Below, piece by piece: positions 9,060 through 60,866 of a stretch of 64,000 nucleotides of DNA (the stretch's first letter is position 1; each line of letters starts with the position of its first letter). This DNA is from Streptomyces lycii. GTDB taxonomy: Bacteria > Actinomycetota > Actinomycetes > Streptomycetales > Streptomycetaceae. The stretch covers positions 1 through 64,000 of the forward strand of contig NZ_WHPN01000416.1 of the NCBI RefSeq assembly GCF_009735685.1, written 5' to 3'. The position numbers and the translations under genes were made by a program. The notes under the pieces were generated by a model. It was not told where the DNA came from and searched no databases. It saw only the letters and a list, made by a program, of their open reading frames with translations.

Positions 9060-9766
9060 CAGACACCGCCCCTCGGCGAGGTGTCCCGGTCCCGGTGGCC
9101 GGACGTCCACGGGGCGTGCAGCCGGTCGGACAGCCGCTTGTTGCCGCCCGTGGCGCCGGGCCGGGCGGCGGGGCGCTCGGCGGCGCCGTTGCCCGTACGG
9201 TCGCCGGCCCGGTGCCGGACGTTGTCCTGCGGGTGGGTGCCGACCAGGTCCTCGAAGAGCGCGCGGGCGTGCACCAGGACCTCGCGCAGCTCCTCCGTCC
9301 CGGCCCGGCCGGTGCGGGCCCGGGAGGCGACGGCGTGCACCTGGCGGTAGCCGTCGACGTGGTGGGTGTGGTGCACGGACAGGGCCGCGACCTGCTCGTC
9401 GTAGTCGTCGGCCGGGTAGCCGCGGTCGCGCACCAGCCGGCCCAGCAGCCGGTCCGCCTCGGCGACGGCCGTCTCGGGCGAGTCGACGAACTGCTCCTGC
9501 ACGCCCGCCCAGAGCGCGACGTAGCTCTCGCGCGCCTCGGCCGTCAGGGGCCGGGCCCGGAGGTCGCCGTGGCGCCGCAGCCGCTCGGAGAGGTCCTTCT
9601 CCGCGGCCTGCGTGTCGCCGTCGTGCCGGGCCACGGTCCGGTCGTACTCGGGACCGAAGCGCTGCCGCAGATTCGTACCGCCGCTCTTCCTGACACGGGG
9701 GGCGAGAACGACCGCGACGATGATGACGACCGCCACGGCCAGAACGATGATGATGCCGGTGGACAT
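9059..9766 (-). CDS. Single-pass membrane protein with conserved helical domain
   Basis: Function unknown; a conserved Streptomyces membrane protein by organisation. About 235 aa: a short N-terminus MSTG, one transmembrane helix (IIIVLAVAVVIIVAVVLAP, residues 5-23), a basic stop-transfer, then a soluble α-helical cytoplasmic domain with VQEQFVDSPETAVAEADRLLGRL shared with the downstream paralogue. The start was chosen at the ATG preceded by GAAAGG; the in-frame ATG 72 bases earlier would bury the membrane segment behind a basic leader. It is first gene of a two-gene operon with a 1-base stop/start overlap. Confidence 0.75.
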   Translation of the reverse strand: MSTGIIIVLAVAVVIIVAVVLAPRVRKSGGTNLRQRFGPEYDRTVARHDGDTQAAEKDLSERLRRHGDLRARPLTAEARESYVALWAGVQEQFVDSPETAVAEADRLLGRLVRDRGYPADDYDEQVAALSVHHTHHVDGYRQVHAVASRARTGRAGTEELREVLVHARALFEDLVGTHPQDNVRHRAGDRTGNGAAERPAARPGATGGNKRLSDRLHAPWTSGHRDRDTSPRGGV

Positions 9767-9964
9767 GTCTTGCCTTTCGCAGAGGTCCTCTCGTGCGAGG
9801 CTGTCAACCCGCCGTTTAACCCGGCGACCGGACCGCAAACGCCGTCAGTTCCCCGCGGCCCGCGCACGGGACGGCGGTGCGCCGCGGCCCGCCTTCCCCG
9901 GCACGGCGGCCGCGGCCGCGAAACACGGAGGCGGCGCCCACGGAGCCGTAGCAGACTGTCCCCC

Positions 9965-10477
9965 ATGACCAGCACACCCACCGGACGCCGCACCTGGACC
10001 GTCGCCCCCGAACCCGTCGGCTCCCCCGACTCCGTGGCGCTGCTGCGCGACTACTTCGCGGAGGTTGCGGGCCGTTACTGGGGCCGGCCCGCGACGGAGG
10101 AGGAGATCGACGACGGGGTCACGGGCGAGCACCACAGCGACGATCTCGTACCGCCCGACGGCCTGTTCCTCGTCGCCCGGTACGGCAACGAGCCGACGGG
10201 CTGCGCGGGCCTGCGGCTGCTGCGGCCGGGCACGGCCGAACTGAAGCGCGTCTACGTCCGCCCCGGTGCGCGGCGCAGCGGCGGCGGCTCCGCGCTGATG
10301 GCCGCCGCCGAGTCCGCCGCCCGCTCCCTCGGCGCGACCCGGATCGTGCTGGACACGCGGCGCGACCTGACCGAGTCGCACGCCCTGTACGCGGCGCACG
10401 GCTACGCGGAGATCCCGGCGTACAACCACGGCGTCTTCGCCGACCACTGGTTCGCCAAGGACCTCGGCACGGACTGA
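9965..10477 (+). CDS. GNAT family N-acetyltransferase
   Basis: Transfers an acetyl group from acetyl-CoA to an amine substrate that cannot be named from sequence. The 170-aa chain has the GNAT core: strand β4 CAGLRLLRPGTAELKRVYVRP, pyrophosphate loop RRSGGGSALM (degenerate Q/RxxGxG/A at residues 100-106), then IVLDTRRDLTESHALYAAHGYAEI, the usual motif B. Monocistronic, with a short spacer after the divergent operon at 9766. No RBS stands out (weak AGACTGTCCCCC before the ATG). Confidence 0.85.
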   Translation: MTSTPTGRRTWTVAPEPVGSPDSVALLRDYFAEVAGRYWGRPATEEEIDDGVTGEHHSDDLVPPDGLFLVARYGNEPTGCAGLRLLRPGTAELKRVYVRPGARRSGGGSALMAAAESAARSLGATRIVLDTRRDLTESHALYAAHGYAEIPAYNHGVFADHWFAKDLGTD

Positions 10478-37165: not shown

Positions 37166-37996
37166 GTGCCGGCCCGCCCCAGCCTTCTGTACGTGACCGA
37201 CCTGACCTACCGTGCCCGCGGCCGGCGCTACTGCGACGAGGACATCTTCCTGTCCTCCCGGCTGCGCGAGGACTTCGACATCGCCCTGTGCCATCCCCTG
37301 GACGCCGCGGCGCTGATGGACGGCTTCCGGGCCGTCGTGGTGCGGAACAGCGGGCCGGTCCTCCACTACCAGGAGCAGTACGAAGCCTTCCGCGCACGGG
37401 CCGCGGCGCGCGGCACCCGGGTCTACAACCCGCTGACGGGCCGGGCCGACATGCGGGGCAAGCAGTATCTGGTCGACCTGACCGAGGCCGGGTACCCGGT
37501 GATCCCCACCGTCGACCGCCCCGAGGACCTGCCCCTCCTGCCCGGGGCCGGTACGTACGCGGTCAAACCGAAGGCCGGAGCGGACTCCGTCGGCCTCCGC
37601 TTCGTCACCGCGGACCAACTCGAAGACGTGACCTGGGACGGCGTGCTGGTCCAGCCCCAGATCGACTTCCGCTACGAGGTGTCGTTCCACTTCGTGGACG
37701 ACGACTTCCAGTACGCGCTGCACGCGCCCGACCCGGACCGGCGCTGGGCTCTGGAGCCCTACGAGCCCACGGAGGCGGACCTCGCCTTCGCGCGGCGCTT
37801 CATCAACTGGAACACCGTCGGGCACGGCATCCAGCGCGTGGACGCGTGCCGCACCCGCGACGGGGACCTCCTGCTGGTCGAACTGGAAGACCTCAATCCC
37901 TATCTGTCCCTGGCCCGCGCCCCGGAAGCCACCCGGGAAGCGTTCGTGAGAAGCATGACGGCCTCACTCCACCGATTCCTGAGCGCCGATTCCTGA
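37166..37996 (+). CDS. ATP-grasp fold protein, orphan
   Basis: Probably an ATP-dependent carboxylate-amine ligase; substrate unknown. The 276-aa chain follows ATP-grasp order: an N-terminal Rossmann-like part (SLLYVTDLTYRARGRRYCDED), the ATP-binding Lys block TYAVKPKAGADSVGLRFV, VLVQPQIDFRYEVSFHFV and the metal-binding tail VELEDLNPYLSL with Glu and Asn. It is monocistronic with AGGAG before the GTG. Its 3' end runs into short CGATTCC repeats, and a metallopeptidase remnant follows. It stands far from the ter genes that elsewhere use ATP-grasp enzymes. Confidence 0.75.
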   Translation: MPARPSLLYVTDLTYRARGRRYCDEDIFLSSRLREDFDIALCHPLDAAALMDGFRAVVVRNSGPVLHYQEQYEAFRARAAARGTRVYNPLTGRADMRGKQYLVDLTEAGYPVIPTVDRPEDLPLLPGAGTYAVKPKAGADSVGLRFVTADQLEDVTWDGVLVQPQIDFRYEVSFHFVDDDFQYALHAPDPDRRWALEPYEPTEADLAFARRFINWNTVGHGIQRVDACRTRDGDLLLVELEDLNPYLSLARAPEATREAFVRSMTASLHRFLSADS

Positions 37997-48692: not shown

Positions 48693-48809
48693 GATTGCCC
48701 CTTCCCCCAGGTGTTGGCAGCCCGAGCGTTGGCAGCCCTGAGCGGCAGGGTAGTGCTCCGGCACTCCGTCGTCCGCACACATGGCGGTTTCGGACGGACC
48801 GGCCCCGGC

Positions 48810-49075
48810 CGGTCGTGCAGGCGGCCCGGGCAGCACCCCGCTCGGTGGTGCAGGCGGACCGGGCAGCACCGCCGGTCGTGCAGGCCGTCCCGGCAGCACC
48901 CCGCTCGGTGGTACAGGCGGTCCCGGCAGCACCATCGGTGGTGCAGGCGCCGCCCGTACATGCCGCCCCGGCAGCACTCCGCACGGTGGTGCAGGCGGTC
49001 CCGGCAGCACCGCCGGTGGTGCAGGCGCCGCCCGTACATGCCGCCCCGGCAGCACTCCGCACGGTGGTGAGCGCA
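48810..49075. repeat. Nested tandem repeats
   Basis: Units built on GGTGCAGGC, GGTCCCGGCAGCACC and a 78-bp higher-order unit present twice (around 48945 and 49018). They lie upstream of the Trypco2 gene on its strand; both strands show open frames (VVQA/AAP repeats, Ala/Cys/Gly repeats) without translation signals. Confidence 0.85.
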
Positions 49076-49397: not shown

Positions 49398-49570
49398 GCT
49401 GCCGCCGCCCGGATCGCGTCCTTCCCGCCGGGCACCGACATCCTGCCCGCCCGCACCCGGCTTCGGCCCGCCGGGCACCGATGTCCGGCGCGCCGGCCCC
49501 GCAGCCGGGCCCGCCGAGGGCCGGGCCCGGGCGGAGACCGCGGTCCAAGGCCGGCGGCCGCCCGGACCGG

Positions 49571-49640
49571 GTCCGGGGTCCGGGGTCCGGGGTCCGGGGT
49601 CCGGGGTCCGGGGTCCGGGGTCCGGGGTCCGGGGTCCGGG
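49571..49640. repeat. Ten perfect 7-bp tandem repeats
   Basis: GTCCGGG repeated ten times without error, ending five bases from the stop codon of the - strand methyltransferase gene. Confidence 0.95.
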
Positions 49641-49645
49641 GTCCG

Positions 49646-50362
49646 TCAGATCTTGCGGGCCAAGGTCAAGCCGTCGGCGATCGTCAGCATCACCGACTCC
49701 ACCCGCGCGTCGTCACGTACGTGCTCGTTGAACGCCCGCGTCGCCCTCCCCGATGCCGTCCTCGCCTCGGGGCCGGTGACCTCGCCGTGGAAGAAGACGT
49801 TGTCGACCACGATCAGCCCGCCGGGCCGGACCCTGGGCACCAGTTCGTCCCAGTAGGCGATCTGGCTCTCCTTGTCCGCGTCGATGAAGACGAGGTCGAT
49901 CTCCGGTTCGGCGGGCAGCGCGCGCAGCGTGTCCAGGGCCGGGGCGACGCGCAGGTCGACACGGTCCGCCACGCCCGCCTTCTGCCAGGCCGTGCGGCCG
50001 TGCGCCGTCCACTCCTCCGACACGTCGCAAGTGATCAGCCTGCCGTCCGGGGGCAGGGCCTGCGCCATGCACAGCGCGGAGAGGCCCGTGAACGTGCCGA
50101 CCTCGACCACCAGCCCGGCCCCCGTCAGCTTCACGAGGAACGCCAGCAGCGGGCCCTGGTCCTCGGAGACCTGCATCTGGGCACGCTCGGGAAGCAGTTC
50201 CCGGGTGGTGGTCACCAGTTCCCGCTGCACCGTGTCGAGCGGCGGATTGTTGGCCAGTACGTAGTCGTAGAGCTCCGGGGTGAGCGGGGTGACCTGGTTC
50301 GGGTCCAGCGCGCCGCGCCCGCCCGTCCCGGTCCGTCCCGTGCTGTCCTGCGCGTCAGTCAT
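49646..50362 (-). CDS. SAM-dependent O-methyltransferase (class I, COMT-like)
   Basis: Catechol-O-methyltransferase-like enzyme. The 238-aa chain has motif I VVEVGTFTGLSALCMA, LITCDVSEEW, the metal-binding Asp region LVFIDADKESQIAYWDELVPRVRPGGLIVVDNVFFHG and RAFNEHVRDDARVESVMLTIADGL, as in Mg-dependent caffeoyl-CoA-type OMTs. ATGA overlap with the HAD gene upstream, RBS GAGGA. Last gene of the ter operon; its substrate may be the product of the upstream enzymes. Confidence 0.92.
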   Translation of the reverse strand: MTDAQDSTGRTGTGGRGALDPNQVTPLTPELYDYVLANNPPLDTVQRELVTTTRELLPERAQMQVSEDQGPLLAFLVKLTGAGLVVEVGTFTGLSALCMAQALPPDGRLITCDVSEEWTAHGRTAWQKAGVADRVDLRVAPALDTLRALPAEPEIDLVFIDADKESQIAYWDELVPRVRPGGLIVVDNVFFHGEVTGPEARTASGRATRAFNEHVRDDARVESVMLTIADGLTLARKI

Positions 50363-51663
50363 GCGGTCATCCTCACCCACGCCCGGGCCTCGCGCAGCAG
50401 GGATTCCACGATCGCCTCGCCGGCCGCCGCGCCCCGCTCCGACAACGCCGTGACGTGCGGCGCCGACCAGCCGGTGTCGGCCAGTTCGCCGTGGCCCGGG
50501 CGCCAGCCGGCGTCGCCCGCGAGCAGCAGATCGGCGTCCAGGAGCGAATCGCCCGCCGTGAGGACCCGGGAGGCGCCGGCGCGCCGGGCGGCCTCGGCGA
50601 CGGCGGCGCTCTTGGTGAGCGGCTTCGGCACGGCGTAGATCTTCCGGCCCTGGAGGGACACCGTCCAGCCCTGTCCGTCGGCCCAGTCCGCGAGGTCCTT
50701 GACCCAGGTGTCGGGCAGCAGGTCGCGCTCGACGACCAGATAGGCGAACAGGTCCTCGGCCACCCGTTCCTTGAGCAGCCAGCCCGGATCGGCGGCGCGC
50801 AGCATGTGCTCGCGTACGGCGGCGAGCGGCGCGCAGCCGGCGTCGAGCGAGTCGCGCACCCGCCGCTGCCAGTCCGGGTCGGACTCGCCGTCGACCAGGA
50901 GGTGCCCGCCGTTGGCGCAGATCGCGTACGGGGGCGGCGGGCCGGGCAGCCGGATACGGCCGTACTGCTCGCGGGTGCGGGTGGTGGTCGGCACGAAGAC
51001 GGCGGTGCGGGCGAGGTCGGCCAGAAGTCCGGCGGCCCGCTCGGTCAGATACGACAGCGGCTTGTGCTGGTACACCTCGACGCACAGCAGGCGCGGCGCG
51101 AGCGCGTCGGGCATGTCCAGGGCGAGGGCGGCGGCGGAGTAGACGAGGGTGCGGTCGAGATCGCTGGCGACCATGACCGGGCCGGAGCCGGACCCGGCCT
51201 CGGAAACGGGGCTCCCGCCGGACCCGGGACCGGACCCGGAAACGGGGCTCCCGCCGGACCCGGGACCGGACCCGGAAGCAGGGCTCCCGCCGGACCCGGG
51301 ACCGGACCCGGGGCCCGGGCCGGGTCCACGGCCCGGGGGCGTAGCTGCACTCATGCCGGTGCGGGAGCCGGAGCCGGAGCCGGAACCGGAGTCGGAACCG
51401 GGGCCCGCGCCGGTGCACGTTCCCGTGCTCGTACTGCCGCTCGCTCCCGTGCTCCGGCTGCCGCTGCCGCTCGTGCCCGCTCCCGCTCCCGCGCCCGTGC
51501 TGCCACTGGTGCCCGTGCCCGCACTGCTGCCGCTCGTACGAGTGCCCGTGCTCGGACTCGTACTGCCGCTCGGACGAGTGCCCGGGCTCGTACTGCCGCC
51601 CGTACCCGTGCCCGTGCCCGTATTCGTGCCGGTCCCGGTCGCCGGTCCGCCCGTGTCGGTCAT
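50359..51663 (-). CDS. HAD hydrolase with Gly/Ser/Thr repeat N-terminus (ter-associated)
   Basis: Phosphatase of the HAD superfamily found in ter biosynthetic operons. The catalytic part starts at about residue 165 (VASDLDRTLVYS), with cap region LPGPPPPYAICANGGHLLVDG, Lys block VPKPLTKSAAVAEAARR and final LTAGDSLLDADLL. The first 165 residues are low complexity: TGTGTNTGTG, then three 11-12-residue repeats PGSGGSPVSGSG coded by an approximately 36-bp DNA repeat. The ATG overlaps the upstream stop (ATGA), which supports the long form, although translation from a later start would give an ordinary HAD protein. Confidence 0.82.
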   Translation of the reverse strand: MTDTGGPATGTGTNTGTGTGTGGSTSPGTRPSGSTSPSTGTRTSGSSAGTGTSGSTGAGAGAGTSGSGSRSTGASGSTSTGTCTGAGPGSDSGSGSGSGSRTGMSAATPPGRGPGPGPGSGPGSGGSPASGSGPGSGGSPVSGSGPGSGGSPVSEAGSGSGPVMVASDLDRTLVYSAAALALDMPDALAPRLLCVEVYQHKPLSYLTERAAGLLADLARTAVFVPTTTRTREQYGRIRLPGPPPPYAICANGGHLLVDGESDPDWQRRVRDSLDAGCAPLAAVREHMLRAADPGWLLKERVAEDLFAYLVVERDLLPDTWVKDLADWADGQGWTVSLQGRKIYAVPKPLTKSAAVAEAARRAGASRVLTAGDSLLDADLLLAGDAGWRPGHGELADTGWSAPHVTALSERGAAAGEAIVESLLREARAWVRMTA

Positions 51664-54600
51664 GCGGAGGTGACCGCCTTGCCGTCCGCGCCCGTCGCGC
51701 CGCGCGTGTAGCGGGGGTGGATCAGACCGACGCAGCTGTACGGCAGTTCGTCGGCCTCCTCCACGGGCACCCCGCGCTCCTCGGCGAGCAGCCGTACGTG
51801 GTCGAGGTCGGCGCCCGCGCCGCGCCGGGCCAGGATCCGCCAGGGGACGCGGCGCAGCAGGACGCGGGTGGTCTCGCCGACGCCGGGTTTGACGAGGTTC
51901 ACGTCGTGGATGCCGTACTCCTCGCTGATCCGTTCGACGGCGGCCCAGCCCTCCCAGGTCGGCGCGCGGTCTCCGGAGAGGAGTTCCTTCGCGGCGAGGG
52001 CGGCGGACTCGGCGACCTCGGCGAAGCGGGCGGTGACGGTGTCGAGGAAGTGTCCTGAGAGGTCGGCGCCGGCGAGTTCGCGGTAGAACTTGCCGCCGTG
52101 GAAGTCGCCCGGGCCGACGAGGTCCGCGCGCAGCACGGTGCGCGATATGAGCCCGGAGACGGTCGAGTTGAGGCAGGCGGAGGGGATGAGGAAGTCCTCG
52201 CGGGTGCCGTAGGTGCGGACGCAGCCGCCGGGGTCGGCGAGTACGGCGATCTCCGGGTCGAAGCCCGTGATACCGGTCTCGCGCGAGAAGTCCTCGATCG
52301 CGGCGGAGAGTTCCCGGGTGATGGCGCCCTTGCCGGTCCAGCCGTCGACGAACACGACGTCGGCCGGGTCGTGGTGGGCGGCGAGCCAGCGCAGCGCGGT
52401 GGTGTCGATGCCGCGGCCCCGGACGATGGAGACGGCGTAGTGCGGCAGTTCGGTGCCGTGCGCGTGGTGCGCCCAGCGGCGCATCAGGATGCCCACGGGG
52501 GTGCCGGCGCGGGCGAGTGACACCAGCACGGGCCGGCCGGTGCCGCGCGCCGCGCCCTCGGCGAGCACGGTCCCGGTGACGGTGCCGACGGCATGGGCGA
52601 TACGGGCGGCCGAGGCGTCGAGCGCCGAGTGGAACAGCCGCTGGTAGCGCTCGCCCGGCTGGTACTCGACGGGCAGCGACTCGGCGTAGTGCGCGCCGCC
52701 CCGTTGGACGGCCTCCTCGCGCTCCTCGGTGGGCGCTTCCAGCGCGACACCGGAGAGGTCCTGGAGCAGCCAGCCGACCTCTTCCGGCGCGTATGAGGAG
52801 AAGGCGGGGCCGCGGAGGGGTTCGGGCAGCATGCGGGGTACGACCTGTCGGTGCGGGGCGGGTGTTGCGCGGCGCGGGGCCGCGGGCCCGGCGGACCGGG
52901 CCTCGGTGAGGTCCGAGGGGGCGTACGGAGAAGCGTTCGCGGGGGCGTGCGCCCGGGCGTGCGCGGGAACGTACGAGGGCACGACCGCGAGCAGCACGCG
53001 GCCGGTGTGGGCGGCGAGCGCGGCGGCGAGGCCGTCCGGGGCGTGCAGCGCCGGGGTGTCGGCGGCGGAGTCGACCACGGCGACGACCGCGTCGAAACGG
53101 CGGGCGGGATCGCGGCCGGGGGCGACGTTGTAGGCGTACCGCTCGCCGGGTCCGTCGGCGGGGTCGTCGTGCGCGGGGAAAGTGATCCGGGTGCGGACGG
53201 CGTAGCCGGGGTCGTCCACGGCGAGGACGGGCGAGCGGGTGGTGGTCGAGGAGCGCACCTCGGTGCCGTCGCCCAGCGCGTCCTGAAGGGCCTCGGCGAT
53301 CCGCAGCGGTGCGTACATCAGCTCCTCGCAGCCCAGTACGAGTACGCGCCGGGGGCGCTGCTCCGTCCCGCCGGGCGCGGCCGCGTGCGCGGGGGCCGTG
53401 CCGGGCGGGACCTCGCCGGGCGGCCCGTCGCCGGGCGGTGTGCCCAGGGCGGCGGCGATCCGGGCGGCCATGCCGGGCAGCGCGGCTTCCAGGGTGGCCC
53501 GGTGGGCCGGGGTGAAGCCGTGCCGGCCGCCGTCGGGCAGCCCGGCCGGCCAGCCGAGGTCGACACGGCGCACGGCCGGATGCCGGTCACCGGGCGCGTC
53601 CGGTGTGCCGGGAGCCGGGCGCGGGACCGGAACCGCCCCGGACGGAACCCCGGGCCTGCCGCCGCCCGGCTCTCCGCCATGCTCTCCGCCCGGCTCTTTG
53701 CCCAGCTCTTTGCCAGGCCTTCCGCCCGGTTCTCGGCCCGGAGGCACGGCCCCGGCCGCGGGCTCGCGCCCGGGAGCCGTTGCGGGCGCCTGTCCGCAGG
53801 CCGACTCGGGAGCTGTTGCGGGCGCCTGTCCGCAGGCCGACTCGGGGGCCGCTGCGGGCGCCCGTCCACGGGCCGCATCGGGCGCCTGTCCGCGGACCGA
53901 TTCGGGAGTCGTTTCGGGCGCCTGTCCGCAGGCCGACTCGGGGGCCGCTGCGGGCGCCGCTTCGTGGGCCGCCACCAGTGCCTGGCCGCGCTTCAGCACG
54001 TCCTCCGGGAGCCGCACCGTGCCGGAGGCCAGGGCGACCAGGTCGACCCGGGCGCCCAGCTCCGCGGCGAACTCCGTGAGCGCGTCGCGGTGTTCGGCGC
54101 CGCGCATGTCGACCAGGGCGACGACGACGTACCGCTCGCGCGGGAAGCGCTCGTGCAGCGCCCTGATCGTGTTGAGCACCGTCCGGCCGGTCGAGAACTC
54201 GTCGTCCACGAGCACCAGCGGCCCGTCCCCCGCGAGCAGCTCCGGGTCCTCGGGCAGCAGCAGGTGCGAGGTGGCGTGGCTGTGCTCCTCCTCGAAGCCG
54301 CCGACCGGGGCGACGCCGGGCACCGGCCGCCGGGTCGAGTGGAGGTACGGAGCGAGTTCCAGCCCGTCCGCGACGCTGTGCCCGAGCCCGGTCGCCGTCT
54401 CGGCGTAGCCCAGGACGACGGCACGCGCGGCGTCCCCGTCGCCGAGCAGCGCCCGCACTTGGCGGCCCAGGCCCACCCCGGCCCCGTGGACCACGGCCGG
54501 GCGCTGCGGCACGTGCTTGCCGAGGACGTTGGAGACCAGCAGGTGAGCACGCTTGGGATTGCGCCGCAGCGCGAGGCCGAGCAGGTCCCGCAGGCCGGGC

Positions 54601-54683
54601 CCGGCCGGGTCGGGGGCCGTTTCGGTCAGGCCGACGCCGAGCCGCCCGGCGACCCACTCGCCGGACCATGTGTGCCGTTCCAT
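51660..54683 (-). CDS. Fused PRTase-TRSP-StiP protein (ter module)
   Basis: One frame joins enzymes usually separate in ter operons. Residues 1-230 are a phosphoribosyltransferase with PRPP loop VDDEFSTGRT (159-168). Residues 237-375 are a linker with PESACGQAPA repeats. Residues 375-570 are a TRSP domain (RVDLGWPAGLPDGGRHGF, VLVLGCEELMYAPLRIAEAL). Residues 618-1007 match the cysteine protease StiP family (SSYAPEEVGWLLQDL, GERYQRLFHSALD), with a C-terminal PELOTA RNA-binding domain by family. Established reviews propose a nucleoside-like metabolite. The ATG at 54683 was chosen because codons back to the coupled ATG at 54890 lose GC3 bias; the latter would add 69 residues. Confidence 0.85.
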   Translation of the reverse strand: MERHTWSGEWVAGRLGVGLTETAPDPAGPGLRDLLGLALRRNPKRAHLLVSNVLGKHVPQRPAVVHGAGVGLGRQVRALLGDGDAARAVVLGYAETATGLGHSVADGLELAPYLHSTRRPVPGVAPVGGFEEEHSHATSHLLLPEDPELLAGDGPLVLVDDEFSTGRTVLNTIRALHERFPRERYVVVALVDMRGAEHRDALTEFAAELGARVDLVALASGTVRLPEDVLKRGQALVAAHEAAPAAAPESACGQAPETTPESVRGQAPDAARGRAPAAAPESACGQAPATAPESACGQAPATAPGREPAAGAVPPGREPGGRPGKELGKEPGGEHGGEPGGGRPGVPSGAVPVPRPAPGTPDAPGDRHPAVRRVDLGWPAGLPDGGRHGFTPAHRATLEAALPGMAARIAAALGTPPGDGPPGEVPPGTAPAHAAAPGGTEQRPRRVLVLGCEELMYAPLRIAEALQDALGDGTEVRSSTTTRSPVLAVDDPGYAVRTRITFPAHDDPADGPGERYAYNVAPGRDPARRFDAVVAVVDSAADTPALHAPDGLAAALAAHTGRVLLAVVPSYVPAHARAHAPANASPYAPSDLTEARSAGPAAPRRATPAPHRQVVPRMLPEPLRGPAFSSYAPEEVGWLLQDLSGVALEAPTEEREEAVQRGGAHYAESLPVEYQPGERYQRLFHSALDASAARIAHAVGTVTGTVLAEGAARGTGRPVLVSLARAGTPVGILMRRWAHHAHGTELPHYAVSIVRGRGIDTTALRWLAAHHDPADVVFVDGWTGKGAITRELSAAIEDFSRETGITGFDPEIAVLADPGGCVRTYGTREDFLIPSACLNSTVSGLISRTVLRADLVGPGDFHGGKFYRELAGADLSGHFLDTVTARFAEVAESAALAAKELLSGDRAPTWEGWAAVERISEEYGIHDVNLVKPGVGETTRVLLRRVPWRILARRGAGADLDHVRLLAEERGVPVEEADELPYSCVGLIHPRYTRGATGADGKAVTSA

Positions 54684-54886
54684 GCCCTGGATGCCCCGTT
54701 CCTCTTCCCAGCTCCGTCGTGCGCCGTGCGCGCCGTTCCTCCGCGCCCCGGCCGCGCCGTCCCGCCGTGCGCCAAGTCTCCCAGCCCGGTGCGGGCCGCT
54801 CTCCGCCGGTCCTCCGGCCGGTCCTTTCTCCGGTTCCCCCGCCGGCCCGTCCCCCGGTCCTCCCGCCGCCCCTTCCCCCGGTCGCG

Positions 54887-56050
54887 TCATCCGAGCGCCG
54901 CGGCCGCCGCGAGCAGTTCCACGAAGCTCACGTCCTCCCGGGCCACTCCGAAGATCTCCGCGCGCAGCAGCGTCCGTTCGGCCCAGGCGCGGTGCGGCTT
55001 CACCTCGTTCATCTTGTTGGTGTACGCCGACCGCAGCACTCCGCCGCCGTTCGGCCCGGGGCGCAGGATGTCCTGCGCGTCGCTGTACTCCTCGTGGCTC
55101 ACGACGGACAGCGCGTGCACGGGCGCGACATGCGAGGGATGTATGCAGGTCTTGCCCTGGAGGCCGTTGGCGCGGTCGAGTTCGATCTCGCGGAGCAGGC
55201 CGTCCATGTCGTGCTCGATGAGGGAGCTGCGAAGTTCCTCGGCGCGCCCGGAGAACGGGCTGTGCCGCAGCTGCGGTTTGAACATCCGCTCCTGGAGCCG
55301 GAAATACTCCCAGACCGGCCCGGTGACGGTGAAGCCGGTGCCGTCGGCCCGTCCGAGGGTGTTGACGACGTCCGCGATGACGGAGGCGACGAGCTGGACG
55401 TCGTACGCCGTCATGTCGGGTGACCTGCGCAGCCCGTACGCCGAGCAGAAGTCCGTCACGCCGAGGCGCAGCGCCAGCACCCGTTCGCGGTACTTGTCGA
55501 CGGACCGCCGGATTCCGGCGAGGGTCTCGGCACGGCTCTCCAGATGCAGCAGCTCCGGGGACTCCAGGACGGGCATGGCGAAAAGCCGCCGTCCGGACAG
55601 GGTCTCCGCCTCGGTCAGCGCCTCCAGGAACGGAACGCCCCGTTCCTCGGTGAACTTGGGGAGTACGAATCCGGACAGCAGCCGCACCGCCGGGCCCAGC
55701 CGCTTCACCAGGTCCGCGATCTGCTCCGGTTCGCGCACCCGGACGAACAGCAGCGGCAGCTCGTCGCCGCGTTCCTCCAGGTCGGTGAAGCTCTGGACGA
55801 GGTTCTCCTCGGCCCCGCCGACCTCGGAGTCGTCGATGGAGTCCTCCAGGCACAGCACCATGGAGACCAGACCGCGGCCGGTCTGCTTGAGCACGTCCTC
55901 CGCCAGCCGGGGGCGGGTCGCCGGGCTGTAGAGCGTCGCTCCGAGCGCGAGCGCCAGGGTGCGAGCCGGGGAATCCTGCGTGAACGCGGCCGGTTCCCGG
56001 TGGAACAGAGCCTCCCTGGTGCCCGCCGGCACGTGCCCGAAGTGGCGCAT
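54887..56050 (-). CDS. HpcH/HpaI aldolase/citrate-lyase-like enzyme (ter-associated)
   Basis: Metal-dependent C-C lyase of the HpcH/citE superfamily. The 387-aa chain has LGATLYSPATRP near the start, LCLEDSIDD, LLFVRVREPE, LPKF, the metal-binding Glu region AMPVLESPELL and LRLGVTDFCSAYGL, then GKTCIHPSHVAPVHAL. In ter operons this family sits beside PRTase, StiP and HAD genes, as here. ATG with GGGAG upstream. The first gene of the - operon, divergent from the TerD gene at 56262. Confidence 0.9.
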   Translation of the reverse strand: MRHFGHVPAGTREALFHREPAAFTQDSPARTLALALGATLYSPATRPRLAEDVLKQTGRGLVSMVLCLEDSIDDSEVGGAEENLVQSFTDLEERGDELPLLFVRVREPEQIADLVKRLGPAVRLLSGFVLPKFTEERGVPFLEALTEAETLSGRRLFAMPVLESPELLHLESRAETLAGIRRSVDKYRERVLALRLGVTDFCSAYGLRRSPDMTAYDVQLVASVIADVVNTLGRADGTGFTVTGPVWEYFRLQERMFKPQLRHSPFSGRAEELRSSLIEHDMDGLLREIELDRANGLQGKTCIHPSHVAPVHALSVVSHEEYSDAQDILRPGPNGGGVLRSAYTNKMNEVKPHRAWAERTLLRAEIFGVAREDVSFVELLAAAAALG

Positions 56051-56261
56051 TGGACTCCCTGCGATCTTGTGACGTTGTGACGCGATCTGGCCGGTAATCG
56101 TACGTTGGTCCGACGGTCAAGAGTTTCCCAAGGGCATGAAAATCTCGTAACCCGCGCGCGTCCGGGCCGTGTCGGGCTCCGCGCCAACCCGTCTTTCCCG
56201 TCGGGTCCCGGCCACTCCCGGCAGGCACCCGCGTTGTCCCGGAGGTGCCCGGGAGGGCAGG

Positions 56262-57170
56262 ATGACGGCCATGACGCACGCGATGTTGAAGGGGTCGAAC
56301 ATCCCGCTGGACGCGACCGCCGTGCGGACGGTGCTCCGCTGGAATCCCGGCCCCCGGGTGCCCGATGTCGACGCCTCCGCCCTGCTGCTCGGCGGGGAGG
56401 GCCGCGTGCGGACCGACGAGGACTTCGTCTTCTACAACCAGCCCCGGCACCCCTCCGGCCTGGTCCGCCATCTGCCCAAGAAGCGGCTCGCGGAGGGGAT
56501 GACGGACACCGTCGAGGCGGACCTGTCCGCGCTGGAGGCGTCGGTGGACCGGGTGGTGCTGGCCGCCTCGTCGGACGGCGGGACCTTCGGCGACGTACCG
56601 GACCTGCGGGTGCTGCTGTACGACGCGTCGCCGGGCACCCCGGCGGACGCCGACCCGATCGCGGTCTTCGACGTGCGGCCGGAGACGGGTGACGAGTCGG
56701 CGCTGATCTGCGGCGAGTTCTACCGGCGCGGCGACGCCTGGAAGTTCCGCGCCCTCGGCCAGGGGTACGACACGGGGCTGATCGGCCTCGCCACGGAGTT
56801 CGGCATCTCGGTGGACGAGAGCGACGTGGCGGAGGGCACCGTGCCGTCCGGCGGTCCCGGCCCGATGCCCGCGTCCGGGCCCGCGCCGTCCGGCCCGCCG
56901 CCCGCGCCCGGCACGCCCCCGGAGGCCGTCACCCAGCCGCACCCGGCGTCGTACGGCTGTCCGCCGCCCCCGCCGCCCGCGCACCCTCCGGCGCCCGCGG
57001 TGCCCCCGGCCGCGGCCGCCCAGGCCCCGCCGGCCGGCGGTCCCGCGTACGGCTACCCGCAGCACCCGGCGCCCGCCTACGGCTATCCGCAGCACGCCGC
57101 CCGGGTGCCGCCGCCGGACCCGGCGTTCACGCTGCCGCCGCAGGGGCCGCAGTTCCAGCCCGGCCGCTGA
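56262..57170 (+). CDS. TerD-domain protein with Pro-rich C-tail
   Basis: Ca2+-binding TerD-fold stress protein. Residues 1-185 are the TerD domain ([79 protein letters not shown]). Residues 190-302 are Pro/Ala/Tyr-rich ([15 protein letters not shown]), a likely scaffold tail. Divergent from the metabolic ter operon, sharing a roughly 210-bp promoter region. ATG with GGGAGG six bases upstream; an alternative in-frame ATG nine bases later is less well placed. Confidence 0.9.
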
Positions 57171-57218: not shown

Positions 57219-57950
57219 TCAGACCTTCTCCTTGTAGCCCCTGCCCCACTGGAGCCCCCAGCCGTAGAGCCGGTCCAGCTCGGCCTGGAAGCCGTAGACG
57301 TACTTGACCTCGCGGCGGACGATCAGCTCGTCCTTGACGTTCTCGATCAGCAGCACGGCACAGGAGCGGGCCTGTGGTGCGCGCTCGTCGAGGCTGATCT
57401 CCAGCCGTGGCCCGTTGCTGGGGTAGAGGGTGACGACCGCCTGGGTGCGGTCGAAGGCGGGGGTGCCGTCGTAGATGTAGACGAAGACCAGCAGCCGCTT
57501 GATCTCGTCCTTGTGGTCCAGATTGACGTAGATCGTCTCGCCGGAGGAGCCGCCGAACCGGTCGTCGCCGCTGAGCTTGACGTACGGCGGTGCGTTGACG
57601 TCGCCGAGGAAGTTGCCGAGCGGCTGTACGACGCCCTTGGTGCCGTCCTTCAGCTCGTACATGCACGCCAGGTCGAGGTCGATCTGGACGACGGCGGGGC
57701 CCTGCGCCTGCACCACCTCGGGCTTGAACATCTGGAACGGATGGCGCAGCAGCCCGCCGCTCACCCGGGAACGGCCGCCGATGTCGGAACTGCGCATCCG
57801 CCAGGAGAGGTTGACGCGGAGATTGCCGGTCGCGGCGTTCTGCTTGGTCAGGGACACCGTGGAGCGGCGTTTGGTGAGTTCTATCGCGTTCGAGGCGGCG
57901 CTGCCGCTGTCGAACTCCGTCCCCCGTCGCCAGTTGTTCCAGAAGGACAC
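57219..57950 (-). CDS. TerA-like tellurium resistance family protein
   Basis: Cytoplasmic member of the TerA/TerD superfamily without the classical TerD metal sites. The 243-aa chain opens MSFWNNWRRGTEFDSG, then strands SLTKQNAATGNLRVNLSWRM, VVQIDLDLACMYELKDGTKGVV, APPYVKLSGDDRFGGSSGETIYVNL and a C-terminal helix region (KYVYGFQAELDRLYGWGLQWGRGYKEKV). GTG start with a poor ribosome site. Follows the convergent TerD gene and precedes the DUF475 gene in reading order. Confidence 0.85.
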   Translation of the reverse strand: MSFWNNWRRGTEFDSGSAASNAIELTKRRSTVSLTKQNAATGNLRVNLSWRMRSSDIGGRSRVSGGLLRHPFQMFKPEVVQAQGPAVVQIDLDLACMYELKDGTKGVVQPLGNFLGDVNAPPYVKLSGDDRFGGSSGETIYVNLDHKDEIKRLLVFVYIYDGTPAFDRTQAVVTLYPSNGPRLEISLDERAPQARSCAVLLIENVKDELIVRREVKYVYGFQAELDRLYGWGLQWGRGYKEKV

Positions 57951-58159: not shown

Positions 58160-59305
58160 TCAGACGCCGGAGGTCACCTCGGTCTTCTTCTCGGCGTCGC
58201 CGCCGCCGTTCCCGGCCGCCAGGGCCTTGTTGCGGCGCAGCGACGACCAGAAGGACGCGGCGATCAGGCCGACCCCGATGAGGCCGGTGATGACCTCGGA
58301 GACGTGCCACTTGATGGTGATGAGCAGCAGTGCGGCGAGGGCGCCGATGGCGTAGTGGGCGCCGTGCTCGAGGTAGACGTAGTCGTCGAGGGTGCCCTCG
58401 CGGACCAGGTAGACCGTGAGCGAACGGACGTACATCGCGCCGATGCCGAGGCCGAGCGCCATCCAGAAGATGTGGTTCGTGATGGCGAAGGCGCCGATGA
58501 CCCCGTCGAAGGAGAAGGACGCGTCCAGCACCTCGAGGTAGAGGAACATGAAGAACGCGGCCTTGCCGGCGAGCCCGACCATCGTCGGGTCCTTGCCCTC
58601 CTTGCGGGCCTCCTCCTCGGCCGCCTCCTCGCGCTCCTCCTCTTCCTCGAGCTTGTTCTCGAAGTGCCCGGACAGACCGCCGACGACCAGATAGGTGATC
58701 AGACCGGCGATGCCGGACAGCATCACTGTGCCTGATTTGTCCACATAGCTTCCGCCGTGCTGAGCCGCCTGGGTGGCGATGGTGATGGCGGAGACCAGCA
58801 GGACGACGAGGGCGACACAGACGGCGAGGCCGTCGACCCTCCCGAGCCGGGCGAGCGGGCGCTCCAGCCAGGAGATCCAGTGGTGCTCCTTCTGGTCGAA
58901 GAGGAAGTTCAGGAAGATCATCAGCAGGAACATCCCGCCGAAGGCGGCGATCGCCGGGTGGGCGTCGGTGACCAGCATCTCGTACTGGTCCGGATCGTCC
59001 ATGGCCAGCTCGACGGCCTCGATGGGGCCGACCTTGGCGGTGATGGCCACGATCACGACCGGGAAGATCAGCCGCATACCGAAGACGGCGATCAGAATGC
59101 CGATGGTCAGGAAGATCTTCTGCCAGAAGGCGTTCATCTTCTTCAGCACGCCGGCGTTGACGACCGCGTTGTCGAAGGACAACGAGATCTCCAGGATCGA
59201 GAGGATCGCCACCACGGCGAAACCCTCCCAGCCCCAGAAGAAGGCTGCGGCGACCAGTCCGACGGCGGTGACGCCGAAGGACCAGCCGAAGGTTTTCAGG
59301 AGCAC
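58160..59305 (-). CDS. DUF475/TerC-like integral membrane protein
   Basis: Membrane protein of the TerC-related DUF475 family, linked to metal-ion export and tellurite response. The 381-aa chain has about nine helices, with the conserved acidic motifs ILEISLSFDNAVVNAGVL in the first half and YLEVLDASFSFDGVIGAFAI in the second (paired E-x-x-x-S-F/x-D-N/G). A Glu-rich loop (NKLEEEEEREEAAEEEARKEGK) joins the halves. GTG chosen (VLLKTFGWSFGV); a 43-residue upward extension is repeat-like leader. It lies between TerA-like and TerD genes on the same strand. Confidence 0.9.
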   Translation of the reverse strand: MLLKTFGWSFGVTAVGLVAAAFFWGWEGFAVVAILSILEISLSFDNAVVNAGVLKKMNAFWQKIFLTIGILIAVFGMRLIFPVVIVAITAKVGPIEAVELAMDDPDQYEMLVTDAHPAIAAFGGMFLLMIFLNFLFDQKEHHWISWLERPLARLGRVDGLAVCVALVVLLVSAITIATQAAQHGGSYVDKSGTVMLSGIAGLITYLVVGGLSGHFENKLEEEEEREEAAEEEARKEGKDPTMVGLAGKAAFFMFLYLEVLDASFSFDGVIGAFAITNHIFWMALGLGIGAMYVRSLTVYLVREGTLDDYVYLEHGAHYAIGALAALLLITIKWHVSEVITGLIGVGLIAASFWSSLRRNKALAAGNGGGDAEKKTEVTSGV

Positions 59306-59352
59306 TGGCCACCCAATCGTGAGTACGGGTCCCCCGCGCGCAGTGCGCGGCT

Positions 59353-59928
59353 TTACGAAACGTTGACCCCGAAGTCTAGAGCGATGCCTCGCAGTCCCGA
59401 CGCGTACCCCTGTCCGACGGCGCGGAACTTCCACTCTCCGCCGTACCGGTACACCTCTCCGAAGATCATCGCAGTCTCGCCGGAGGCGTCCTCACTGAGG
59501 TCGTAACGAGCGAGTTCGGAGCCGTCGGCCTGGTTCACGACCCGGATGAAGGCGTTGCTGACCTGGCCGAAGGTCTGGCCGCGCACATCGGCGTCATGGA
59601 TCGACACGGGGAAGACGATCTTGTCGACATGCTCCGGGACCTTGCTCAGGTCGAGGATCAGCGACTCGTCGTCGCCGTCGCCCTCGCCGGTGAGGTTGTC
59701 ACCGGTGTGCTCCACGGAACCCTCGGGGCTCTTGAGGTTGTTGTAGAAGACGAAGTATTCGTCGCCCAGCACCCGCCCCGACTGGCAGAGCAGGGCGCTG
59801 GCATCGAGGTCGAACGGCGCGCCCGTGGTCGAGCGGGCGTCCCAGCCCAGGCCGACCAGCACCTGTGTGAGGTTCGGCGCGGCCTTGGAGAGGGAGACAT
59901 TGCCTCCCTTGGCGAGCGTCACACCCAT
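59353..59928 (-). CDS. terD: TerD family stress protein
   Basis: 191-aa TerD-fold Ca2+-binding protein. Hallmarks: [26 protein letters not shown], acidic loops [20 protein letters not shown] (Ca site), [24 protein letters not shown], and [25 protein letters not shown]. Over 80% similar by eye to the adjacent paralogue at 60038, so a tandem duplication. ATG with GGGGAGGAAC upstream. Confidence 0.95.
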
Positions 59929-60037: not shown

Positions 60038-60613
60038 TCAGACGTTGACGCCGAAGTCCTGCGCGATGCCGCGCAGGCCGGAGGCGTAGCCCTGGCCGAT
60101 GGCGCGGAACTTCCACTCGGCGCCGTGCCGGTACAGCTCGCCGAAGACCATGGCGGTCTCCGTCGAGGCGTCCTCGGTCAGGTCGTAACGGGCCAGCTCG
60201 TTGTTGTCGGCCTGGTTCACCACGCGGATGAAGGCGTTGCGCACCTGGCCGAAGCTCTGCTGGCGGCTCTCGGCCTCGTAGATGGAGACCGGGAACACGA
60301 TCTTGGCGACATCGGCGGGCACCCCGGCGAGGTTGACCTTGATCTGCTCGTCGTCGCCCTCCCCCTCACCGGTGAGGTTGTCACCGGTGTGCTCCACGGA
60401 GCCGTCGGGGCTCTTGAGGTTGTTGAAGAAGACGAAGTGCTGGTCGGAGGCGACCTTGCCCTCCGCGTTCGTCAGCAGCGCGCTCGCGTCGAGGTCGAAG
60501 TCGGTACCGGTCGTCGTGCGGACGTCCCAGCCGAGGCCGACGGTGACGGCGGTCAGGCCCGGCGCCTCCTTGCTCAGCGAGACGTTGCCACCCTTGCTGA
60601 GGCTGACTCCCAC
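60038..60613 (-). CDS. terD: TerD family stress protein (paralogue)
   Basis: 191-aa TerD paralogue. Same motifs as the neighbour: [96 protein letters not shown] start with GGAGGACGC just upstream; a longer frame to 60841 is spacer. Its own hairpin follows. Together with DUF475 it forms the metal-stress half of the ter locus. Confidence 0.95.
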
Positions 60614-60866
60614 GCGTCCTCCCATGGATATGGGGGCACGGGCGTGACCTGCCCCCGTCGTGCGATGACATCGGTTCAACGGGATTGATCCTAGTGAGCG
60701 GCACCTCCGCGGGACAGGCTCTTCGGTCCGGCTTTCGCCGTCCCGGCGGGAGCCCGCCCCGCCGCCGCGCGACCGGCCCCGCTTCCCGCCCGACCGGCCG
60801 GCGCTCCCCCGTGACCGTGCCGCGCTCCCGTGGCCGGCCACCGTCCCGGATCCGCCGGGCCGGTCA

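Follow-up and report, generated by a model that had tools for sequence, protein, structure and literature searches.

The ter operons are the closest described relatives of the locus presented here. In the available part of PMC7824862, their phosphoribosyltransferases (PRTases) and HAD phosphatases are viewed as making a nucleoside or nucleotide derivative, a signal that TerB or TerD might sense; the ter analysis of Anantharaman et al. 2012 is cited here by way of the accessible portions of PMC7824862 and PMC4633105. The present analysis concerns a stretch of 64,000 nucleotides from Streptomyces lycii (contig NZ_WHPN01000416.1, positions 1 to 64,000), called the window below, from a genome of 7.65 Mb that is 99.99% complete. 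A gene set on the minus strand of the window is the standard Streptomyces version of the ter biosynthetic operon. It consists, in order, of a C-C bond lyase, a single open reading frame (ORF) containing PRTase_2, TRSP, StiP and PELOTA_1, a HAD-like phosphatase and an O-methyltransferase. The features of a ter module found here are PRTase_2 with TRSP, StiP with PELOTA_1, the PF15617 lyase and adjacent TerD/TerC genes.

It is useful to compare this operon with those of two plasmids. On the E. coli IncHI2A plasmid pTZ41_1P a phosphoribosyltransferase, StiP and an HpcH/HpaI lyase are likewise annotated beside ter genes, tblastn also detected TRSP (31%, E 2e-6), and there is a HAD-like hypothetical protein with a weak S6PP match. 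However, these are separate genes in another order, the first gene encodes ATPgrasp_Ter (128.6 bits), and no O-methyltransferase is annotated in the stretch. The plasmid ter operon of Mycolicibacterium alvei (L124) has the same HpcH, PRTase, StiP and HAD-like order, with a StiP half 63% identical to that of the window; the gene before HpcH has no Pfam match, and no ATP-grasp was seen there, as here. The difference is that PRTase and StiP are separate genes in M. alvei, overlapping at ATGA.

The window carries a fused ter operon without ATP-grasp, and we consider it rather likely that an internal start in the fusion also serves StiP-PELOTA in most Streptomyces loci compared. A PRTase_2-TRSP gene has been joined in frame to a StiP-PELOTA gene, and the ATP-grasp ligase of enterobacterial ter operons is lacking. 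Because no stop codon intervenes, ribosomes starting at PRTase would read through StiP and make the long chain. A second putative ribosome-binding site with an in-frame ATG or GTG at the joint of most Streptomyces loci studied would very likely give free StiP-PELOTA as well, and with it an excess of the RNA-binding, PRTase-fold half. On balance, one frame probably gives two proteins across much of Streptomyces, the four-domain chain and free StiP-PELOTA in excess. The site may postdate the fusion and have disappeared again from some lineages, partly so from the window. There the ATG is kept with a weak Shine-Dalgarno (SD) sequence; the main product is therefore probably the fusion, and little internal initiation is expected. 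By analogy with the view given in the available part of PMC7824862, the enzymes would make a nucleoside or nucleotide derivative. PRTase_2 would presumably add phosphoribose from phosphoribosyl pyrophosphate (PRPP) to an acceptor, the HAD enzyme would remove phosphate, and the StiP half would act on an RNA-bound or related product. The internal translation, the stoichiometry and this chemistry are what we infer.

The fused frame occupies positions 51660..54683 on the minus strand (1007 amino acids from the start supported by homology) and matches PRTase_2 (E 1.4e-68), TRSP (1.3e-34), StiP (3.4e-101) and PELOTA_1 (4.8e-35) in Pfam. It follows the gene for the HpcH/CitE-like lyase, PF15617 (C-C_Bond_Lyase; 54887..56050, minus strand; Pfam E 5e-123). 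An initial annotation made from the letters of the window had its coordinates, gene order and domain reading borne out by Pfam and the translations, and its identification of a ter operon with a one-frame fusion and a missing ATP-grasp stands. It had further combined coupling of the genes by ATGA with a fusion of 1007 amino acids. ATGA does occur at all three operon junctions, but the one between HpcH and the fusion (54890-54887) is in frame and a start there gives 1076 amino acids, so both cannot hold; the 1007-residue start (54683) is the better fit to the N-termini of split homologues and lies 203 nt beyond the HpcH stop. The PESACGQAPA-type tandem repeat (about 53771-53990, minus strand; repeat periods 36 and 96, visible in the peptide) had been noted as a linker in the fused protein. 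It was rejected as the fusion joint, as it lies between PRTase and TRSP, away from the TRSP/StiP joint.

The single frame, which the initial annotation had reported for the window, is the norm of the genus Streptomyces and nothing special to this genome. StiP loci were taken from 61 Streptomyces genomes, 60 drawn evenly and that of the window; StiP was found in 60 of them, and in this 60-locus set 56 loci are fused, one is probably fused (contig end) and three are split. A collection of 80 loci of named relatives has 73 fused, three probably fused, two split and two undetermined; it overlaps the 60-locus set (for example, L153 and L066), and the two are not added as independent. Outside Streptomyces, among 20 actinobacterial loci chosen from 41 matched genomes, seven are fused, spread over three family codes, and 13 are split; in ten of the latter the PRTase stop overlaps a start codon. 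A further non-Streptomyces locus, L028, is fused too, while the halves are split in the E. coli, Mycolicibacterium and phage ME3 examples. Joining or separation of the halves has probably happened repeatedly. The linker from TRSP to StiP has 30 distinct lengths by match boundaries in the 60-locus set and measures 67-406 nt between matches in 88 fused loci, a count (88 fused, 8 split) that omits the loci without PRTase in view (L026, L029, L058, L070, L071, L073 and L106). Its GC content by codon position, 0.83/0.54/0.92, is a coding composition. L092 was rejected as a split at the junction: its reading frame shifts between PRTase and TRSP, and, the genome being a draft, this may reflect faulty assembly. 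Neither this fusion nor the internal start was found reported in the titles and abstract openings of the open-access literature, among the matches listed.

The candidate internal start in the window is an in-frame ATG at the TRSP/StiP joint (52830..52832, minus strand; peptide MLPEPLRGP), with an SD match of 4 nt at a spacing of 10. It would begin a form of 390 amino acids (51660..52832, minus strand) that comprises, by Pfam and the structural model, the PRTase-fold core of StiP and a PELOTA/L7Ae-like RNA-binding domain. Most Streptomyces loci have such an in-frame ATG, in a few cases GTG, in the linker before StiP, preceded by GAAAGG or a CAGGA-like sequence; the strong sites are of the GAAAGGAGCTCCATG type. 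A start codon is present at the joint in 51 of 60 loci (49 ATG), 48 of these belonging to the 57 unsplit frames. An internal start is what the initial annotation had named as evidence against its fusion, and it was looked for: those 48 loci have one, that of the window being an ATG preceded by a weak SD sequence. Counting exact agreement with the SD consensus between positions -18 and -4, the match is at least 5 nt long in 32 of the 48. Over all sets, which overlap, 103 loci have a joint match of at least 5 nt, 74 of these with a spacing of 6 nt. A comparable case, in the available part of PMC11899642, is archaeal Cas11b (type I-B), which is translated from a start codon within a longer gene, in the same frame; that is a different system, and the internal start is experimental there and inferred here.

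The joint site is conserved at the nucleotide level in the genus. Over the 83 distinct upstream sequences of all sets, which are related by descent, the mean SD match is 5.17 nt, compared with 3.76 (standard deviation 0.07) after synonymous recoding; it exceeds all 500 recodings (maximum 3.95). A match of 5 nt is reached by 56 of these 83 upstreams but by at most 25 in any of the 500 recodings. The other in-frame ATGs have a 5-nt match in 37 of 302 cases, and the HpcH start, used as a yardstick, in only 2 of 84 distinct upstreams, poorer than the joint. The codon test, reported for the 60-locus set and the named relatives each apart, gives a similar picture in both: the nearest junction arginine is encoded by the rare AGG codon at 27 of 43 loci, whereas AGG makes up no more than 11% of any of 31 other arginine columns of StiP-PELOTA; in the overlapping named relatives it is AGG in 56 of 67, with no more than 15% in any of 28 columns. 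At the joint ATG the predicted mRNA structure is weak, with a mean of -8.2 kcal/mol per 41 nt, and of -6.8 for the segment 30 nt upstream; the other flanking segments more than 30 nt away range from -9.5 to -15.9, except that at +180. A test by duplex energy was dropped for the exact-match test, as its separation of the site was not clean: -5 or lower was reached by 129 of 144 joint sites, where the best of several candidates was used, but also by 294 of 734 control ATGs. Since the site is held at the nucleotide level, many Streptomyces probably make both the fusion and free StiP-PELOTA.

Natural splits are consistent with an active StiP start. In L023/L024 and in L025 only a few bases separate a stop from the StiP ATG. 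In L050, compared with relatives such as L062, four additional bases between a strong SD sequence and the ATG bring in a stop, which may be a sequencing error in a single draft. StiP is intact in all three lineages with a stop beside the retained start, as it should be if that start was functional beforehand. A tree built from the StiP region requires two changes for the fused or split label and eight for the presence of the start; this is a quick tree with 22 of 65 inner branches open and L050 left out, which cannot tell gain from loss.

Several observations speak against general internal initiation. Some of them, namely the weak SD match of the window, the unsplit loci without a start, L045 and the fused non-Streptomyces loci, are also what would be seen if the long chain alone were made and the ATG and SD sequence at the joint were a relic of a once separate StiP gene. 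Within the 60-locus set, 9 of 57 unsplit loci have no start codon at the joint; where there is one, the SD match falls below 5 nt in 16 of 48 cases, the window with its 4 nt at spacing 10 included. The nearest relative of the window on the tree, L045 (pair support 91), has no ATG at the joint, and the other near-base Streptomyces rows L033, L172, L143, L150 and L154 also lack the start. Common descent may account for part of the site conservation. The GAA codon is less telling than AGG, as another glutamate column reaches 80% GAA, and the dip in mRNA structure is not unique, the +180 segment being as weak (-8.3). None of the eight fused non-Streptomyces loci, L028 included, combines an ATG with a match of at least 5 nt, the nearest case being L198, where a GTG lying 30 nt ahead of the StiP match has an SD match of 5 nt; the fusion thus works without the site. 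Nevertheless, production of the long chain alone appears unlikely, since a relic should decay, yet rare codons keep the SD sequence across changing linker peptides. The near-base rows without the site further suggest that it may be a later gain, within the limits of the tree given above.

The opposite reading, that the halves are in practice two separate proteins because the long frame is little translated or cut in the linker, with the joint reflecting a lost stop codon, finds its parallels in the 13 split loci among the 20 non-Streptomyces ones, ten with the overlapping start, and in the three split Streptomyces lineages. We regard it as very improbable: the frame is open in 56 or 57 of 60 loci despite 30 linker lengths, the linker has a coding composition, and, in the absence of a stop, only cleavage of the chain could prevent a full-length product. 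Channelling as the initial annotation proposed it, in which a ribosylated intermediate is passed from PRTase/TRSP to StiP/PELOTA, is compatible with dual translation and agrees with the one open frame in the window and the seven fused loci of three family codes among the 20 other actinobacterial genomes. It is a tentative proposal that we rather doubt, as the variable joint linkers, the conserved separate start and the tolerated fission suggest that a fixed link is not essential. Dual translation of one frame is the reading that we prefer.

The initial annotation had also pointed out that the ATP-grasp typical of the pathway is missing. There is none in the operon, and a genome-wide search with ATPgrasp_Ter (PF15632) gave no strong match, the best being 28.7 bits (29.4 with neighbours) in a frame of 1107 amino acids, presumably carbamoyl-phosphate-synthase-sized, and 25.3 bits in a frame of 446; the E. 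coli ter ATP-grasp, as a yardstick, scores 128.6 bits. With the latter as query, tblastn found nothing in the window genome in a run without a positive control, and no match in the relative ter loci L023-L122 and L124-L125; no ATP-grasp is annotated in L124 or L125. The absence is therefore real but not special to the window. Nineteen of the 61 Streptomyces genomes do have a strong ATPgrasp_Ter (20 matches, 112-129 bits); that of the window is not among them, whereas G032, the single genome of the 61 that lacks StiP, is. At three such places (L175-L177) the gene lies away from ter, with a carbohydrate-binding/fn3 gene near each and a GH18 match in one; no ter family besides ATP-grasp was found among the 10 ORFs scanned, a scan that did not cover the ATP-grasp ORF of L177 itself. 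The orphan ATP-grasp-like ORF in the window (37166-37996, plus strand) has no Pfam match, ATPgrasp_Ter included, and only a weak match to DcsG (D-cycloserine synthetase; 32.4 bits, cut-off 360). ATPgrasp_Ter may not be universal in ter modules, and the Streptomyces operon appears, from its gene content, to work without it.

The StiP-PELOTA half of the window was modelled from a 27-sequence alignment with moderate confidence (predicted local distance difference test score, pLDDT, 73; predicted template modelling score, pTM, 0.78). Residues ~60-264 of the StiP model match PyrR/HPRT (1ufr_C, Z 10.5; Foldseek 1ufr_A, E 1.5e-3, probability 1.00), with Foldseek probabilities of 0.9-1.0 and Z of 9-10.5 overall and an identity of 7-21% in the rows listed. 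No Foldseek match is at E 0.001 or below, and unrelated pyridoxal phosphate enzymes occur among the matches at probabilities of 0.2-0.5. The C-terminal residues 295-376 match the L7Ae-like YlxQ (3v7q_A, Z 9.5). The modelled StiP core is thus of the type I phosphoribosyltransferase fold, an assignment of fold and not of activity, and the fused chain appears to comprise two domains of PRTase fold together with TRSP and an RNA-binding domain. The sequence VDGWTGKG is presumably PRPP-loop-like, differing from that of the type I enzymes PyrR and HPRT. A sequence search of solved structures with StiP gave no PRTase, which came from the fold model alone, and a comparison of StiP and PRTase_2 profiles of three sequences showed no similarity. 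The phage ME3 homologue is annotated as a phosphoribosyl transferase. No cysteine is invariant among the 27 StiP sequences (C222 in 26, C206 and C369 in 25 each), of which 25 are from Streptomyces and two are viral rows that may be misaligned; C206 is common to the window, E. coli and Mycolicibacterium. In view of the modelled fold, the name "cysteine protease" for StiP is doubtful.

Further StiP-PELOTA relatives were observed. L026 (G023:C2, a contig of 555 kb) has a second, stand-alone StiP-PELOTA at ~9329-10396 with 57-60% identity and no PRTase match in the 18.7-kb locus; a fused copy is present elsewhere in its genome. The viral-labelled IMG/VR contigs L178 and L179 encode relatives of 44% and 38% identity.

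The remaining genes of the operon follow the fusion on the minus strand. The HAD-like phosphatase ORF (50359..51663) overlaps the fusion stop by ATGA and has no Pfam match at E 0.01; it is assigned on the basis of ASDLDRTL, which we take to be HAD motif I, and of homologues in the same operon place in relatives. Its N-terminus of ~160 amino acids is repetitive and of low complexity, and its start is therefore uncertain. The last gene (49646..50362) encodes an S-adenosylmethionine-dependent O-methyltransferase (Methyltransf_3, Pfam E 3.3e-56), which is an optional accessory of the operon, directly adjoining HAD in 13 of the 93 relative loci with room to tell. Eleven perfect copies of the 7-bp unit GGGTCCG lie immediately downstream of its stop (49569-49645), and imperfect 63/78-bp tandem repeats are found past the operon end (48808-49069). 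No promoter or terminator was found in a scan of the operon region, which covers Streptomyces-type promoters poorly. The ter neighbours on the other side are TerD (56169-57170, plus strand) and, on the minus strand, a weak TerD match below the cut-off (57219-57950), TerC/DUF475 (58160-59434) and two TerD genes (59353-59928 and 60038-60841).

Neither the fusion nor the lack of ATP-grasp sets the window apart within its genus. What was unexpected is the conserved ribosome-binding site within the fused frame, of which the window is a weak case. The ter operons are widespread, and a StiP relative is held by 2567 plasmid records; 24 of the 25 plasmid records listed carry the protease name, which the PRTase-fold model calls into question. 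To our knowledge, the ter metabolite has not been identified so far, and the natural split and fused strains are ready comparisons. If the fused enzyme and a free StiP-PELOTA are indeed both kept, the free half would have a role of its own, perhaps with RNA.

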